In this document: positions 5,926 to 11,524 of the stretch, one piece after another
Layout: every line of letters starts with the position of its first letter
Position numbering within the stretch: position 1 is the first letter of the stretch
NCBI GenBank assembly: GCA_903916355.1
Contig: CAIWWN010000270.1
Span: 70,127-110,500 of the forward strand
Length of the DNA stretch: 40,374 nucleotides
Direction: 5' to 3'
Origin: an uncultured Burkholderiales bacterium
GTDB taxonomy: Bacteria; Pseudomonadota; Gammaproteobacteria; Burkholderiales; Burkholderiaceae_C
Notes under the pieces: generated by a model
Told to the model about the DNA's origin: nothing
The model's input: the letters and a program-made list of their open reading frames with translations, nothing else
Database searches by the model: none
Position numbers and translations under genes: made by a program

Positions 5926-6189
5926 ATGCCAGCCACCCACACTGACCGCCGCTTGCGCAATCGAGTGCCCGGCAAACGCGCGACCAATCTGAGCCTGAGC
6001 AGTGATGTGCTGGAGGCTGCAAAACTCCTCGAAATCAACATTTCTCAGGTCTGCGACAACCACCTTCGTGAAGTCGTACGACGTGAGCAGGAACGTAAAT
6101 GGCGCGAGGATCATGCCGATTTCATAGCGGCTTACAACACCACCATCGATGCCGAAGGGCTGCCACTGGATGAATGGAGAAGCTTTTGA
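5926..6189 (+). CDS. ccdA: Antitoxin CcdA
   Basis: Labile antitoxin that neutralises CcdB and represses the pair. The 87-residue product begins MPATHTDRRLRNRVPGKRA. A ribbon-helix-helix N-terminal half follows (ATNLSLSSDVLEAAKLLEIN), and the C-terminus WREDHADFIAAYN...LPLDEWRSF is the toxin-binding tail typical of CcdA. I chose ATG 5926 because GGAG at 5916-5919 sits 6 bases before it; an in-frame ATG at 5908 lies inside the operator palindrome. The stop overlaps the ccdB start by one base (TGATG), the normal coupled arrangement. Confidence 0.92.
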   Translation: MPATHTDRRLRNRVPGKRATNLSLSSDVLEAAKLLEINISQVCDNHLREVVRREQERKWREDHADFIAAYNTTIDAEGLPLDEWRSF

Positions 6190-6506
6190 TGGCACGGTTT
6201 GATGTCTATGCCAACCCGGGCAGCCATGCCGCCACCACGCCCTACCTGCTGGATGTGCAGAGCGACCTGCTCAATGGCTTGGACAGCAGGATGGTGATTC
6301 CGCTGCGCAGTCTCAAGCACTTCCCCAAGGTCAAGCTGTCGCCTCAACTGACGCCGATCTTCGCGATTGAAGGCGAAGAGTACCTGCTGGAAACACCGAA
6401 AATGGGTGCGGTCCCGCAGCGGGTGTTGAAGTCACCTGTGACCTCCCTCGCCCACGCACAAGACCAGATCACCGCCGCGCTGGATTTTTTGTTTCAAGGC
6501 TATTGA
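6189..6506 (+). CDS. ccdB: Toxin CcdB
   Basis: CcdB poisons DNA gyrase by trapping it on cleaved DNA. The 105-residue product has the family hallmarks: ARFDVYANP start, YLLDVQSDLLNGLDSRMVIPL (residues about 19-39), a PIFAIEGEEYLLETPKMGAVP core, and a C-terminal helix TAALDFLFQGY. The start ATG overlaps the ccdA stop; an upstream in-frame ATG at 6174 inside ccdA is rejected. In the F-plasmid toxin the last three residues W-G-I are needed for gyrase poisoning. Here the end is Q-G-Y, keeping only the Gly, so potency or target may differ. Several chromosomal relatives also lack the Trp, so this does not prove inactivation. Confidence 0.93.
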   Translation: MARFDVYANPGSHAATTPYLLDVQSDLLNGLDSRMVIPLRSLKHFPKVKLSPQLTPIFAIEGEEYLLETPKMGAVPQRVLKSPVTSLAHAQDQITAALDFLFQGY

Positions 6507-7951: not shown

Positions 7952-8743
7952 TTGTTTAAATTGACCAGCCTGAATCTGAATGGCATCCGTTCTGCCACCA
8001 CCAAGGGGGTAGAGACCTGGATCGAGCAGGTGCACCCCGATTGTATTTGCGTGCAAGAAGTCAAAGCCCAAGCCGCCGATGTGGCGGGCAAGTTCGAGTC
8101 TTTGGCCGGCATGGCCGGCTACTTTCACTTTGCCGAGAAGAAAGGCTACTCCGGCGTGGGCGTGTATTCGCGCCACGAACCCTCTGATGTGGTGGTGGGG
8201 TTTGATGGCGGCGAGTTTGACGCCGAGGGCCGTTATGTGGAGTTGCGCTTTGACACGCCGCAGCACAAGCGCTCCATCATCAGTTGCTACTTTCCGAGCG
8301 GTTCGTCCGGGCCCGAGCGGCAAGAGGCGAAGTTCCGTTTCCTGGCCGGCATGGCCCCGCATTTGGCGGCACTCAAGGTCGAGCGCGACTTTGTGCTGTG
8401 CGGCGACGTGAACATTGCCCACCAGCAGGCGGATTTGAAGAACTGGCGCGGCAACCAAAAAAACAGCGGTTTCTTGCCCGAAGAACGCGCTTGGATGACC
8501 GAGCTGACCACCCAGGGCGGCTTGGTCGATGTGTACCGCCGCCTGCAACCTGAGGCCACCGACGCTTGCTACACCTGGTGGAGCAACCGAGGCCAGGCCT
8601 ACGCCAACAACGTGGGTTGGCGCTTGGACTACCATTTGGCAACGCCGTCCCTGGCCCAGAGCGCGCGCTCGGTGGAAATTTACAAGGGCGAGAAGTTCTC
8701 CGACCACGCACCAATCACGATCGAGTACGCTTTTTCGCTGTGA
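7952..8743 (+). CDS. xth: Exodeoxyribonuclease III (AP endonuclease)
   Basis: Class II AP endonuclease and 3'-5' exonuclease of base excision repair. With a TTG start at 7952 the product is 263 residues. It begins (M)FKLTSLNLNGIRSATTKG, the family start, with metal ligand Glu36 in CVQEVK, the Asp/Asn pair in LCGDVNIAH, and the catalytic His in FSDHAPITIEY at the end. The TTG is preferred because GGGGAG (7941-7946) lies 5 bases before it, whereas an upstream ATG extension would run deep into pyrE. Its last 117 bp are partly repeated at 10656-10770, beyond the ATPase/RloB islet. The tail seen here may therefore be a replacement. Confidence 0.95.
   Translation: MFKLTSLNLNGIRSATTKGVETWIEQVHPDCICVQEVKAQAADVAGKFESLAGMAGYFHFAEKKGYSGVGVYSRHEPSDVVVGFDGGEFDAEGRYVELRFDTPQHKRSIISCYFPSGSSGPERQEAKFRFLAGMAPHLAALKVERDFVLCGDVNIAHQQADLKNWRGNQKNSGFLPEERAWMTELTTQGGLVDVYRRLQPEATDACYTWWSNRGQAYANNVGWRLDYHLATPSLAQSARSVEIYKGEKFSDHAPITIEYAFSL
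8627..8665 (+). repeat. Left copy of a 39-bp direct repeat in the xth 3' end
   Basis: These 39 bases encode DYHLATPSLAQSA near the C-terminus of exonuclease III. They are repeated without a mismatch at 10656-10694, on the far side of the two-gene islet. The two start points are 2029 bp apart. Beyond the block the two sequences diverge sharply to roughly 77% (46 of 60 bases, counted by hand), so its right end looks like a recombination border. Confidence 0.9.
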
Positions 8744-8832
8744 AAGCAGGACGACGGCCTCGCCCCCCTCGCAAAGCGTGGTGGCTCACACTTTCAGTGC
8801 TGACTGCACAAAATTTCATAATAGATCTATGT

Positions 8833-8852
8833 TTCAACAAAATTTTGTTGAA
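8833..8852. promoter_or_regulatory. Perfect 20-bp palindrome upstream of the ATPase/RloB operon
   Basis: TTCAACAAAATTTTGTTGAA is a perfect 20-bp palindrome ending 54 bp before the ATPase start codon. It lies in an AT-rich leader. A CATAAT box at 8817-8822, just upstream, could be a -10, which would put the palindrome around or just after the transcription start. It could be a repressor site or an mRNA hairpin; no regulator gene is next to it. The symmetry is seen directly and the role is inferred. Confidence 0.6.
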
Positions 8853-8906
8853 CATGAAGATTATTATGTGGCATGATGGCCGTTGGCTCAAAGTCAAAGG
8901 CCAACC

Positions 8907-10088
8907 ATGCTTCACTACTACGCATTCAAAAATTTTCAGAGCTTTAGAGAGCGAACCGTTGTCTCCATGGAGATCAACCGGAAAGCGCCACTCCATGGCT
9001 GGCAGGTCACTTCGCGCGCTGGGCATCGGCTGAGCACAGTTTTGGCCGTCATGGGCGCCAACGGGGCCGGTAAGACTGCCGCATTGAAACCACTCGCCTT
9101 TGCCGAGTGGTTTATCGCGCAATCATTCAACGCGCCACCCGAAAGCACTATCCCCCTGGTGCCGCACCTTTTGGGTGGTATCGAGCCCACCGAGATTGAG
9201 TTGGAGGCTGAAGATGACGAGGGTGTGGTTTGGCGTTACGAGCTAATAGCCAATGAACGGCAGGTGCTGCGCGAAGCGCTTTACCGTAAACGCGAGCGCT
9301 TCAATTACGTATTCATTCGTATTCTGGATGCAGTCACAGGCCTTTACTCTATCAAACAGCAGGGCTTTGATTTCAATCCCGCTGAGGCCAGAAAGGTGCG
9401 CTCGAATGCGTCCTTAATCGCCACAGCAGCACAGTATGGAGTCGAACTGGCCCAGAAGATTCGCCGACTCAATTTTGCTAGTAACGTTACCGTTAGCGGA
9501 CGTGCGCACTTTGCTACCCCTCAGCTTACGTATTCTGCCGAGCAGTTTGGCAAGGATGAATTGCTTCGCGCTCAAATGTCTAAACTGCTGTCTTCTTGGG
9601 ACCTAGGCCTGTCCAATGTGATGGTCAAGGACTTCGAGCGCGATCAGGCAGACGGCACCAAACTCAAGACGTGGCTAGCCATTGGGCAGCACAAAGTGAT
9701 TGGCGGTGAGTTCAGCCTGCTGATGGAGCAAGAGTCCAGTGGTACGCAGAGCGCCTTTGTCCTGTTGTCGCGGATACTTCCGGTCCTGAGCTATGGCGGA
9801 TTGGCGCTCCTTGATGAACTAGACAGCGACCTGCATCCCCTCATGATCGAGCCGATCCTGGAATTGTTCGCCAGTCACACCACAAATCCGACCCAGGCTC
9901 AATTGATCTTTACTTGCCATACTCCCGAGGTGCTGGACTTGTTGCAAAAAAGCCAGGTCTTGTTCGTCGAAAAGGTCGACTGCGCCAGTCGCGGCTATCG
10001 TGCGGATGAAATCAAGGGACTACGAAGCGACGACAGCCTGCGCGCCAAATACTTGGCCGGCGCACTAGGCGGCGTACCGCAACTCTGA
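8907..10088 (+). CDS. AAA15/OLD-type ABC ATPase, RloA-like, first gene of a defence-like pair
   Basis: Predicted ATP-driven sensor/effector partner of the next gene. The 393-residue product begins MLHYYAFKNFQSFRERTVVS, the SMC/ABC-like start of COG1106 ATPases. Walker A is GANGAGKT (50-57), the ABC-type signature is ESSGTQ (276-281), Walker B is LALLDELD with Glu304, and the switch His338 lies in FTCHTPEVLD. I chose ATG 8907 because AAAGG lies 6 bases upstream and the family begins here; an in-frame TTG at 8883 is less likely. Its stop overlaps the RloB-like start by one base. Related ATPases pair with RloB or with DUF4435 TOPRIM proteins (PARIS). Codon use is more AT-rich than that of pyrE or xth, suggesting transfer. 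Confidence 0.88.
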   Translation: MLHYYAFKNFQSFRERTVVSMEINRKAPLHGWQVTSRAGHRLSTVLAVMGANGAGKTAALKPLAFAEWFIAQSFNAPPESTIPLVPHLLGGIEPTEIELEAEDDEGVVWRYELIANERQVLREALYRKRERFNYVFIRILDAVTGLYSIKQQGFDFNPAEARKVRSNASLIATAAQYGVELAQKIRRLNFASNVTVSGRAHFATPQLTYSAEQFGKDELLRAQMSKLLSSWDLGLSNVMVKDFERDQADGTKLKTWLAIGQHKVIGGEFSLLMEQESSGTQSAFVLLSRILPVLSYGGLALLDELDSDLHPLMIEPILELFASHTTNPTQAQLIFTCHTPEVLDLLQKSQVLFVEKVDCASRGYRADEIKGLRSDDSLRAKYLAGALGGVPQL

Positions 10089-10606
10089 TGATGCAGCGGA
10101 ACGCCCCTCGTCAGATTCGCCGCACGGTCCTGATCGTTGGCGAGGGCTTGGCTGAGGTCGAGTTCTTAACTCATTTGCGTGCACTCTATACCGCTGGGCA
10201 GCAAGGCTGCCGGTTAACAGTCAAGAACGCTCGCGGGCGCGGTGCAGGCCATGTTGTTAAGCATGCAATTGGTCAACGGGCACAAGCGTCTTATGATCGT
10301 GCCGCAGCTATGCTTGACACAGATACGGACTGGACGGTAGCTACCCAGACGCTCGCCCGGCGCAACAACATCAAGGTGCTCGCGTGCGACCCATGTTTGG
10401 AGGCTTGGCTGCTGCGCTTAGCGGGTGAACGTCTACGTGAAGGTGTCGATGCCGGGGAGGCCAAAGCTCGCTTCGCTGTTCTGTTTGGGGGGGGCGCCCA
10501 CGACAACGGCGTCATAGCGAGACACTTCACACGCGAAGTGCTGGACGCCGCCGCAATCAATGACCCACTTCTAAGCGACCTCTTCGACCTTATATTGAAC
10601 TGGTAG
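10088..10606 (+). CDS. RloB-like TOPRIM-type protein, second gene of the defence-like pair
   Basis: Probable nuclease-type effector. The 172-residue product has LIVGEGLAEVEFL (15-27), where the G-E-G with a following Glu fits the TOPRIM acidic motif. It then has LDTDTDW (76-82) as the D-x-D motif and CDPCLEAWLLRL (100-111), matching the N/D-P-C-x-E-x-W-L-L signature of RloB proteins. It overlaps the ATPase stop by one base (TGATG), so the two are surely co-translated. RloA/RloB genes were first noted in restriction-modification loci; their ATPase-TOPRIM logic resembles PARIS and OLD systems. The length is somewhat short for RloB, yet all motifs are present. Downstream lies the broken xth tail. 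Confidence 0.82.
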   Translation: MMQRNAPRQIRRTVLIVGEGLAEVEFLTHLRALYTAGQQGCRLTVKNARGRGAGHVVKHAIGQRAQASYDRAAAMLDTDTDWTVATQTLARRNNIKVLACDPCLEAWLLRLAGERLREGVDAGEAKARFAVLFGGGAHDNGVIARHFTREVLDAAAINDPLLSDLFDLILNW

Positions 10607-10655
10607 AGCGGTTCCCCCCTGGTGACAGAAGAAAATGTAGGTTTTTTGCCGGATT

Positions 10656-10770
10656 GACTACCATTTGGCAACGCCGTCCCTGGCCCAGAGCGCGTTCCGA
10701 GTCCATCTACAAAGCGCAGAAGTTTTCAGACCACGCACCCATCACCATCGAGTACGAAGGCTTGCTGCAA
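10656..10770 (+). pseudogene. Broken second copy of the exonuclease III 3' end
   Basis: The first 39 bases (10656-10694) are identical to 8627-8665 inside xth. The next about 60 bases encode SIYKAQKFSDHAPITIEY, similar but not identical to SVEIYKGEKFSDHAPITIEY of the intact gene. Two bases are missing around 10695 relative to xth, so the reading frame shifts between the halves. No stop codon follows the conserved end in frame until about 10918. It is therefore a remnant, not a gene. It probably marks the original or the imported xth end left when the ATPase/RloB module was inserted. Confidence 0.85.
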
Positions 10771-10786: not shown

Positions 10787-11524
10787 TCAGTGCCGGGTGT
10801 ACGTCAGCATGCGCCCTTTGTAGGCCGCTTGGCTCAGGTGGCCGAGGCTGGCTTCGATGGCGGGGCGATCGAGCAGCAACTCGTGCAAGTCAAAGCCCAA
10901 AGCCGCCATGTTGCGGTTGAAGTGTGCGCGGTTGCCCCGGTTCGGGTCCACCACCCACACCTCAGCGCCGGGTGCGGCGTGGTTGTCGATGAATTGGGCC
11001 AGCGTGCCCTGTTCATCGCGCTCGTACAAAATGTCGCTGCCCACAATCAAATTGAATTGTCCGGTCAAGGCGATGTCGCTGTTTTGAATCACCGGTTGCG
11101 ACCCCCATTGCCCATGGCGGTAGTCCAACGGCGCCAGGCCATTGAGGCGCAGGTTTTCCAATAAAAATCGGGCAGTCTCGGGGTGGCAATCGCTGGCCGT
11201 CATGTGCGCGCCGCGCCGGTGCCCGACCAGGCTGGACAGGGCCAGGCCGCAGCCGATTTCCAAAATACGCTCCAGCGGGTTGACGGGTCTGAGCGCAATG
11301 CGCTCGGCCAAGCGAGAGCCCGAGGGCCACAACAAGCCAAAGAGTGGCCAGGTGGCCGACGAAATGCCCAGGTGCAGGGCCAGGCCCAAGGGGTCGTGAA
11401 ACTGCTGTTTGTCCAGCAGTGAGCGGATCACCAAGTCATCGACACCGTCAATGTGGAAATTCTCTTGCTTGGTTTGGTAGCCAAGGTCGCTGGCGACAGC
11501 CGATGAAGGAACGGGAGGAAACAA
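10787..11524 (-). CDS. Class I SAM-dependent methyltransferase (METTL21/Methyltransf_16-like)
   Basis: Likely protein- or small-molecule methyltransferase; substrate unknown. The 245-residue product has the SAM-binding motif I ILEIGCGLALSSLVG (about residues 87-101), an acidic end of strand 2 in TASDCHPET, and a later FNLIVGSDILYERD matching the D-x-Y-like motif of the nicotinamide N-methyltransferase-like group. The segment LGISSATWPLFGLLWPSG before motif I also fits that group. It converges on the xth remnant with a gap of about 16 bp. A minus-strand TA remnant lies upstream. Confidence 0.88.
   Translation of the reverse strand: MFPPVPSSAVASDLGYQTKQENFHIDGVDDLVIRSLLDKQQFHDPLGLALHLGISSATWPLFGLLWPSGSRLAERIALRPVNPLERILEIGCGLALSSLVGHRRGAHMTASDCHPETARFLLENLRLNGLAPLDYRHGQWGSQPVIQNSDIALTGQFNLIVGSDILYERDEQGTLAQFIDNHAAPGAEVWVVDPNRGNRAHFNRNMAALGFDLHELLLDRPAIEASLGHLSQAAYKGRMLTYTRH

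Follow-up and report, generated by a model that had tools for sequence, protein, structure and literature searches.

The 3′ end of xth as a probable integration site for small cassettes that apparently lack a recombinase

A duplicated xth end around an AbiL-like gene pair

A DNA stretch of 40,374 nucleotides from an uncultured Burkholderiales bacterium (contig CAIWWN010000270.1; G000:C270:70127-110500, hereafter called the window) was analyzed with regard to a small islet at the 3′ end of xth, a gene of the exonuclease III family. The gene is located on the forward strand at 7952..8743, as delimited by a PF03372 match and by alignment with the relatives L006 and L112, which possess an empty site; TTG was assumed as start codon. 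A 39-bp block of xth, which begins with GACTACCATTTGGC and ends with AGCGCG (8627-8665), recurs without any mismatch at 10656-10694, 2,029 bp further downstream. Extending the block by ten upstream bases gives 92% identity over 49 positions. Past the block, the two tails (8660-8729 and 10687-10756) can be aligned without gaps at 77% identity and encode the ends SVEIYKGEK (joined to xth) and SESIYKAQK (downstream). The registers of the two copies are 2 nt apart (offset 2029 versus 2027) due to a slip at AGCGCG, and thus the downstream tail is frameshifted at the edge of the block. Its stop codon is lost as well, since the window shows CAA where L006 has TAA. A first-pass annotation of this DNA had described the repeated block, the diverging tails and the frameshifted end without stop, and all of these were recovered, the block base for base. 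Using a 401-bp query from the xth end, a search of the window's own genome only returned the two tail places and a self-palindrome.

The islet extends from core to core over 2,029 bp (8629..10657), as judged from the repeats, the list of open reading frames (ORFs) and a comparison with a second genome, G338. Between its two xth tails, ORFs and profile matches revealed only two genes on the forward strand, as already annotated. The first one encodes an AbiLi-like AAA ATPase (8907..10088; PADLOC AbiLi PDLC02335, 2.4e-68; PF13304), whose start was taken as the ATG at 8907 while the mechanically determined ORF begins with a TTG at 8883. The second one (10088..10606) encodes an RloB/AbiLii-like protein (PADLOC AbiLii PDLC02338, 1.3e-9; PF13707, 31.9 bits at a cut-off of 31.5) and overlaps the ATPase stop codon by 1 nt; an AbiLi-type ATPase and an AbiLii/RloB partner are thus arranged in one operon. 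None of the islet ORFs encodes a recombinase, which agrees with the lack of an integrase reported before.

According to the profile matches, the pair most likely constitutes an AbiL-type abortive-infection system directed against phages. The two-gene architecture of an ATPase and an RloB/TOPRIM-type protein is common to AbiL and PARIS (AriAB). Both AbiL profiles, AbiLi and AbiLii, match the window pair, whereas AriA of PARIS matches the ATPase more weakly (6.6e-26), and AriB, the PARIS effector, is not among the three families matching the second gene (E up to 0.1). A link between RloB, AbiLii and OLD-type TOPRIM domains or nucleases is drawn in a published study (PMC10440598). Solved structures gave weak sequence matches for the ATPase and none for the RloB-like protein. 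Homologues of the ATPase were found in 11 of 90 genomes of the genus (E up to 1e-10, G000 counted), the next best one being 48% identical.

Empty sites and the same islet in another genus

Sixty genomes of the genus were searched and xth was detected in 54 of them; loci were obtained for 30 genomes, the window's included. In none of the other 29 loci was the ATPase or the RloB-like gene found near xth, within a fetched flank of at most 1.5 kb, and 21 of these loci contain a methyltransferase-like gene. In the closest relatives of the sample, G043 (L005/L112) and G015 (L006), xth directly abuts this gene, which represents an empty site. In the window the methyltransferase-like gene is located on the reverse strand behind the second tail (10787..11524; weak Pfam matches below the cut-off). 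A separate gene of the CcdB family (PF01845) lies outside the islet at 6174-6503, about 1.4 kb upstream of xth.

Compared to G043 and G015, the xth sequence upstream of the core (see below) is 89-90% identical, the tail joined to xth 65% and the broken downstream tail 80-87%. From these values it follows that the displaced, broken tail is native while the tail joined to xth is foreign. The first-pass annotation had distinguished an intact and a broken copy of the xth end, which is correct, but the roles need to be amended in that the intact gene bears the foreign tail. Insertion at the xth 3′ end with replacement of the tail, as had been suggested, is well compatible with this arrangement. The window xth is therefore chimeric, presumably native up to the 8-bp sequence GACTACCA at 8627..8634 (codons D-Y-H), which will be referred to as the left copy of the crossover core, or, less likely, up to approximately 8665, and foreign from there to the stop codon (putative replacement tail, 8635..8743). 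Downstream of the cargo, the right copy of the core (10656..10663) is followed by the remainder of the 39-bp block (10664..10694), which equals the left copy and differs from each of L006 and L112 by eight substitutions and a 2-nt gap. This segment is probably of the islet type, as a result of conversion or recombination of one copy with the other, but may also be a native variant. The displaced native tail with its 2-nt shift and without a stop codon follows at 10695..10760 (87% identity to L006, 80% to L112).

The window xth end with its flank, used as a query, gave a match of 87% in G338, which belongs to another genus (g62). The G338 islet is also contained in the record CAIMSP010000068.1 of a metagenome-assembled genome (MAG; L076). 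In G338, the phage-defence-like genes are positioned behind this genome's own xth and are followed by a second, displaced xth tail; the ATPase is 99% and the RloB-like protein 97% identical at the amino acid level. The islets agree at 1,894 of 1,936 aligned nucleotides (97.8%), whereas the xth sequences upstream of them agree at only 512 of 687 (75%). The occurrence of a nearly identical islet behind a divergent xth thus indicates that it was transferred horizontally and entered the same end of the gene. Identity to the window islet begins near 8714, some 75-80 nt past the core. Between the two genomes, the ATPase shows 14 synonymous and three non-synonymous codon differences out of 393, the RloB-like gene six and six out of 172, from which selection is plain on the ATPase but not on the RloB-like protein. 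Upstream of the ATPase, the window contains a perfect palindrome of 20 bp (8833..8852), which is embedded in a longer inverted repeat (z values of RNA folding, -1.82 and -1.81). The palindrome is kept in the G338 islet, where a change in one arm is compensated in the other arm, and may possibly serve as an operator or attenuator.

Extra xth tails in the family and a common end site

The survey was carried out in one bacterial family, many of whose genomes are draft assemblies or MAGs, using a profile of xth tails (A1, 15 rows). An xth tail was detected in 381 of 399 genomes and more than one tail in 28. In 16 of the 399 genomes, representing 14 genera, an extra tail is located behind xth on the same strand and contig (G000, G112, G125, G159, G165, G171, G174, G185, G249, G308, G338, G387, G396, G430, G467 and G473); G232 is a weak further case. 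Sixteen is a lower bound because a limited number of candidates was scored per genome and many genomes are fragmented. Extra tails lie between 125 bp (G473) and 11.1 kb (the second one of G387) behind the xth stop codon. The remaining 11 of the 28 genomes were rejected as islet carriers. In G137, G208, G228, G297, G311, G391 and G438, the second match was weak and situated on a different contig or at a great distance, and was read as a paralogue. G361 revealed two strong matches on two contigs, G348 a decayed tail on another contig, and G126 and G267 tail copies at contig ends. In each of the latter two genomes, near-identical xth ends are present at two contig ends (L271/L272 and L269/L270), and in G267 the DNA following the stop codon differs; these are possibly assembly breaks at duplicated xth ends.

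The cargo at this point of xth differs between genera. Beside the AbiLi-like ATPase and AbiLii/RloB pair of G000 and G338, a CcdA/CcdB-type pair was identified in G159 (CcdB, PF01845, 2.9e-24). A related pair (77% and 86% amino acid identity) is situated behind the second tail of G467, and G387 possesses a copy of the G159 type behind the last tail found (CcdB 79%, CcdA partial), so that CcdAB occurs at xth in three genera. G467 additionally contains YefM/RelE-like and ParE/RHH-like (ribbon-helix-helix) pairs, named by eye. G165 harbors a type II restriction-modification system comprising a C5 DNA methylase and an EcoO109I-like restriction enzyme, G308 the candidate defence pair PDC-M21A/B (8e-37, 3e-65) and G112 an AAA_16 ATPase. 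The sole long ORF of G430 (L254, G430:C27) encodes a protein with a beta-lactamase fold (PF00144). One related protein is common to G249 and G396, and in each of these genomes the two tails are very alike. The genes of the two islets of G387 were assigned by eye to redox enzymes, hydrolases, transporters, methyltransferases and regulators, while weak tail remnants of more islets were detected in G171 and G467. In G473 (L251, G473:C42), about 125 bp separate the xth stop codon from a second tail preceded by a perfect right-end motif; this is apparently an empty cassette.

Directly in front of the displaced tails, a common sequence was recognized, composed of GTGGGTTTTTTG, 9 nt with the weak consensus YCGCATTGA and CTACCA. 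In the window, the motif reads GTAGGTTTTTTG (10637..10648) and is followed by the 9-nt spacer (10649-10657). At 14 of 20 right ends, the 12-mer GTGGGTTTTTTG is matched at nine or more of its 12 positions, 9 nt before the core. A first test comprised 12 of the 20 right ends, chosen by eye after inspection; G338 (the same element), G112, G174, G185, G232, G396, the first end of G467 and the second of G171 were omitted. It yielded 18.23 bits in the best 12 columns compared to a random maximum of 6.1 (2,000 draws). Since ends chosen by eye favor a motif, the test was repeated with all 20 right ends and random sites anchored at CTACCA. The value was then 9.48 bits against a maximum of 3.91, and none of the 2,000 anchored draws reached 9.48; for the 12 ends chosen by eye, the corresponding maximum was 6.68. 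When 80 genomes (17 islet genomes and 63 others) were scanned with the reversed pattern as control, eight of ten matches with at most one mismatch were located at islet right ends, and 11 of 21 with at most two mismatches. The off-site matches in G092 and G308:C121 are surrounded by ordinary genes, and a pattern match in G574 was rejected as an element because it is situated inside an ordinary ORF.

The motif is shared by islets with unrelated cargo in ten genera (12 ends), whose sequences immediately before it show no conservation. Native xth carries GTGGGNTGGCGNCTGGACTACCA where the islets have the end site. The end site therefore looks xth-like on both sides, with a different centre that is 4 nt longer. 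On the left side, the switch from native to foreign sequence falls inside GACTACCA in G430, G387 and G159, whose relatives are 93%, 92% and 92% identical upstream, and the right copy turns native at the same place in all three. In G000, differences from the relatives start right after GACTACCA, which is compatible with a switch at the core. The D-Y codons at the core are invariant in the 15 rows of the tail profile. The origin of the tails was judged from their identities to relatives; in 12 of the 17 islet genomes, the extra tail is closer to the nearest available relative than the tail joined to xth, with small margins in G338, G396 and G171 and with some nearest relatives being distant or islet genomes themselves.

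Possible modes of transfer and relation to known systems

Empty sites in relatives, varied cargo in other genera and the presence of one islet in two genera support the idea of the first-pass annotation that the xth 3′ end is an integration hotspot. With a probability of roughly 0.7, this gene end is an attachment site for small mobile cassettes that apparently lack a recombinase. Such a cassette would consist of a replacement xth tail, the cargo and the end site GTGGGTTTTTTG-N9-CTACCA. Perhaps in a circular form, it would recombine with the xth gene of the host inside GACTACCA, that is, within the codons of a conserved D-Y pair, whose conservation would make the site available in many hosts. 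After insertion, the native 5′ part together with the cassette tail, including the SDHAP motif, would keep the xth reading frame open, and the native tail would end up behind the cargo, where it could degenerate, as may have happened in the window. Further cassettes could be added in tandem. This model presumes that a site-specific recombinase is supplied in trans, that the cassette passes through a circular form and that the tails later undergo homologous exchange. A tyrosine-type enzyme is conceivable because of the short crossover and the habit of such enzymes to use gene ends. It is a tentative extension, somewhat less probable than an even chance, that the islets form an integron-like system of their own, in which minimal cassettes with this end site use the D-Y codons of exonuclease III for attachment, bring along a functional end of the gene and travel between many genera with the help of a recombinase provided in trans.

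Several observations weigh against integration at the core by such a mechanism. The tail joined to xth fits the relative better in five of the 17 genomes (G174, G185, G232, G249, G308), and six of the 20 right ends are devoid of the motif (G112, G174, G185, G232, the first of G467 and the second of G171). The 21 genomic matches obtained with up to two mismatches hardly exceed the 16 of the reversed control. In G000, the two copies agree over the 31 nt that follow the core, so the left switch could also lie at 8666. The xth-joined tail of G338 resembles the genome's own genus over its initial 74 nt (63/74 nt with G460); identity to the window islet only sets in some 75-80 nt beyond the core, so this junction is not located at the core. 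Moreover, no recombinase was found in the searches of islets and xth loci, and a free form was not found in viral, phage and plasmid collections. In viral contigs, the right-end motif gave no match and the tail profile a single one, which is a full-length xth. The window tail did not match any entry of the plasmid collection, while the G387 tail matched two phage records annotated as xthA and ten records of the plasmid collection, four of them annotated as exodeoxyribonuclease III and six without a feature at this position.

As a special case of the cassette model, the islets may have arisen by decay from integrase-bearing islands with xth as their attB, or be satellites of such islands, resembling cis-mobilizable elements (CIMEs). 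This is a serious possibility, albeit clearly below even odds. Tail replacement and tandem arrangement match the behavior of CIMEs as outlined in a publication on these elements (PMC5704250), and a search with the tyrosine-recombinase family PF00589 (E up to 1e-8) in 13 of the 17 islet genomes gave no match inside the islets. On the other hand, an integrase-bearing island beside xth was encountered neither in these 13 genomes nor in a regular-expression scan of the DNA downstream of xth, which was run without positive control on an initial set of xth loci, to which further islet loci were added afterwards. Two weak matches of the scan (L114, L184) were rejected as integrases by eye, and serine recombinases, looked for by regular expression only, were not seen. 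The sole exception is a broken integron-type integrase with stop codons and a frameshift, which in G308 immediately precedes xth in the same orientation (L268, G308:C174:311-1154). It is absent from the other loci compared; pyrE was found at this position in 13 of the remaining 16 islet genomes.

Less probable, though not to be neglected, is a spread without any recombinase, in which islet DNA is taken up and xth and its tails provide the arms for homologous recombination. In this case the right end would have been inherited from one ancestral islet and the cargo exchanged. Homology to xth on both sides of the islets and the lack of a recombinase gene are in line with this scenario, as are the mosaic tail of G338 and the 39-bp tract in G000. 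The latter two suggest that homologous exchange between tails also occurs, for which reason the recombinase-free explanation keeps weight. However, it does not easily account for a right-end motif that is common to unrelated cargo in ten genera while the DNA upstream of it is unconserved, nor for left switches which in three lineages converge on the same 8 bp behind a native upstream xth.

Cassette movement by an integron integrase with xth as a secondary site is very improbable. The cassette-like cargo and the broken G308 integrase just upstream of xth would fit, and integron integrases are common in the family. TIGR02249 matches were obtained in 43 of 80 family genomes (E up to 1e-30), 38 of them above the curated cut-off, and in none of 14 controls. 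But these enzymes occur in nine of 17 islet genomes and in 34 of 63 others, hence without enrichment, for which reason the idea was dropped; in G000 none was detected at the limit used, and inspection of the junctions by eye revealed no core of the GTTRRRY consensus type. Least probable of all is that xth was duplicated in tandem and one copy was then largely deleted, an alternative close to the one named in the first-pass annotation: the extra tails do derive from xth in the same orientation and the two tails are very alike in G249 and G396, but most extra tails begin at common codons behind a shared motif that is not part of xth, the tail joined to xth is foreign in G000, G430 and G387, and the same islet exists in two genera.

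If the cassette model is true, the xth end is a new hotspot, and defence systems, toxin-antitoxin pairs and other cargo can be gathered there by inspecting the sequence that follows xth, with the right-end motif as an aid to annotation. Since the frame of this DNA-repair gene is restored upon each insertion, the islets would illustrate how mobile DNA can land in the end of a housekeeping gene. The model also raises the directly testable question of which recombinase moves cassettes that carry none. A description of xth as an integration site was not found in the open-licence literature searched.

Integron cassettes are small modular units of few genes, often toxin-antitoxin or defence genes, without a recombinase of their own. 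The xth islets are similar in being small, modular and devoid of a recombinase, but their site is situated inside a housekeeping gene, an attC-type core was not seen by eye and integron integrases are unenriched. The integrative elements e14 and P21 restore the 3′ end of their protein-coding target icd. With elements of this type the xth islets share the crossover inside a gene and the replacement 3′ end brought along by the element. By contrast, e14 and P21 carry an integrase, and none was found in the xth islets. CIMEs are described as elements that lack integration genes and are enclosed by attL- and attR-like repeats comprising the end of a target gene, with tandem accretion at the sites of integrative and conjugative or integrative and mobilizable elements (PMC5704250). 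The xth islets likewise show attL/attR-like repeats of the target gene end on their flanks, empty sites in relatives, no integration genes of their own in the islets searched and tandem accretion. They differ in that xth is the target, that they can be very short, that only one of their ends revealed a conserved motif and that no integrase-bearing relative was found at xth in the part of one family's genomes searched. What is new here is that xth is the target, that the elements are small, that they have an end site in common and that they lack a known helper; in kind, the xth islets are closest to CIMEs and to elements restoring the 3′ end of their target gene.

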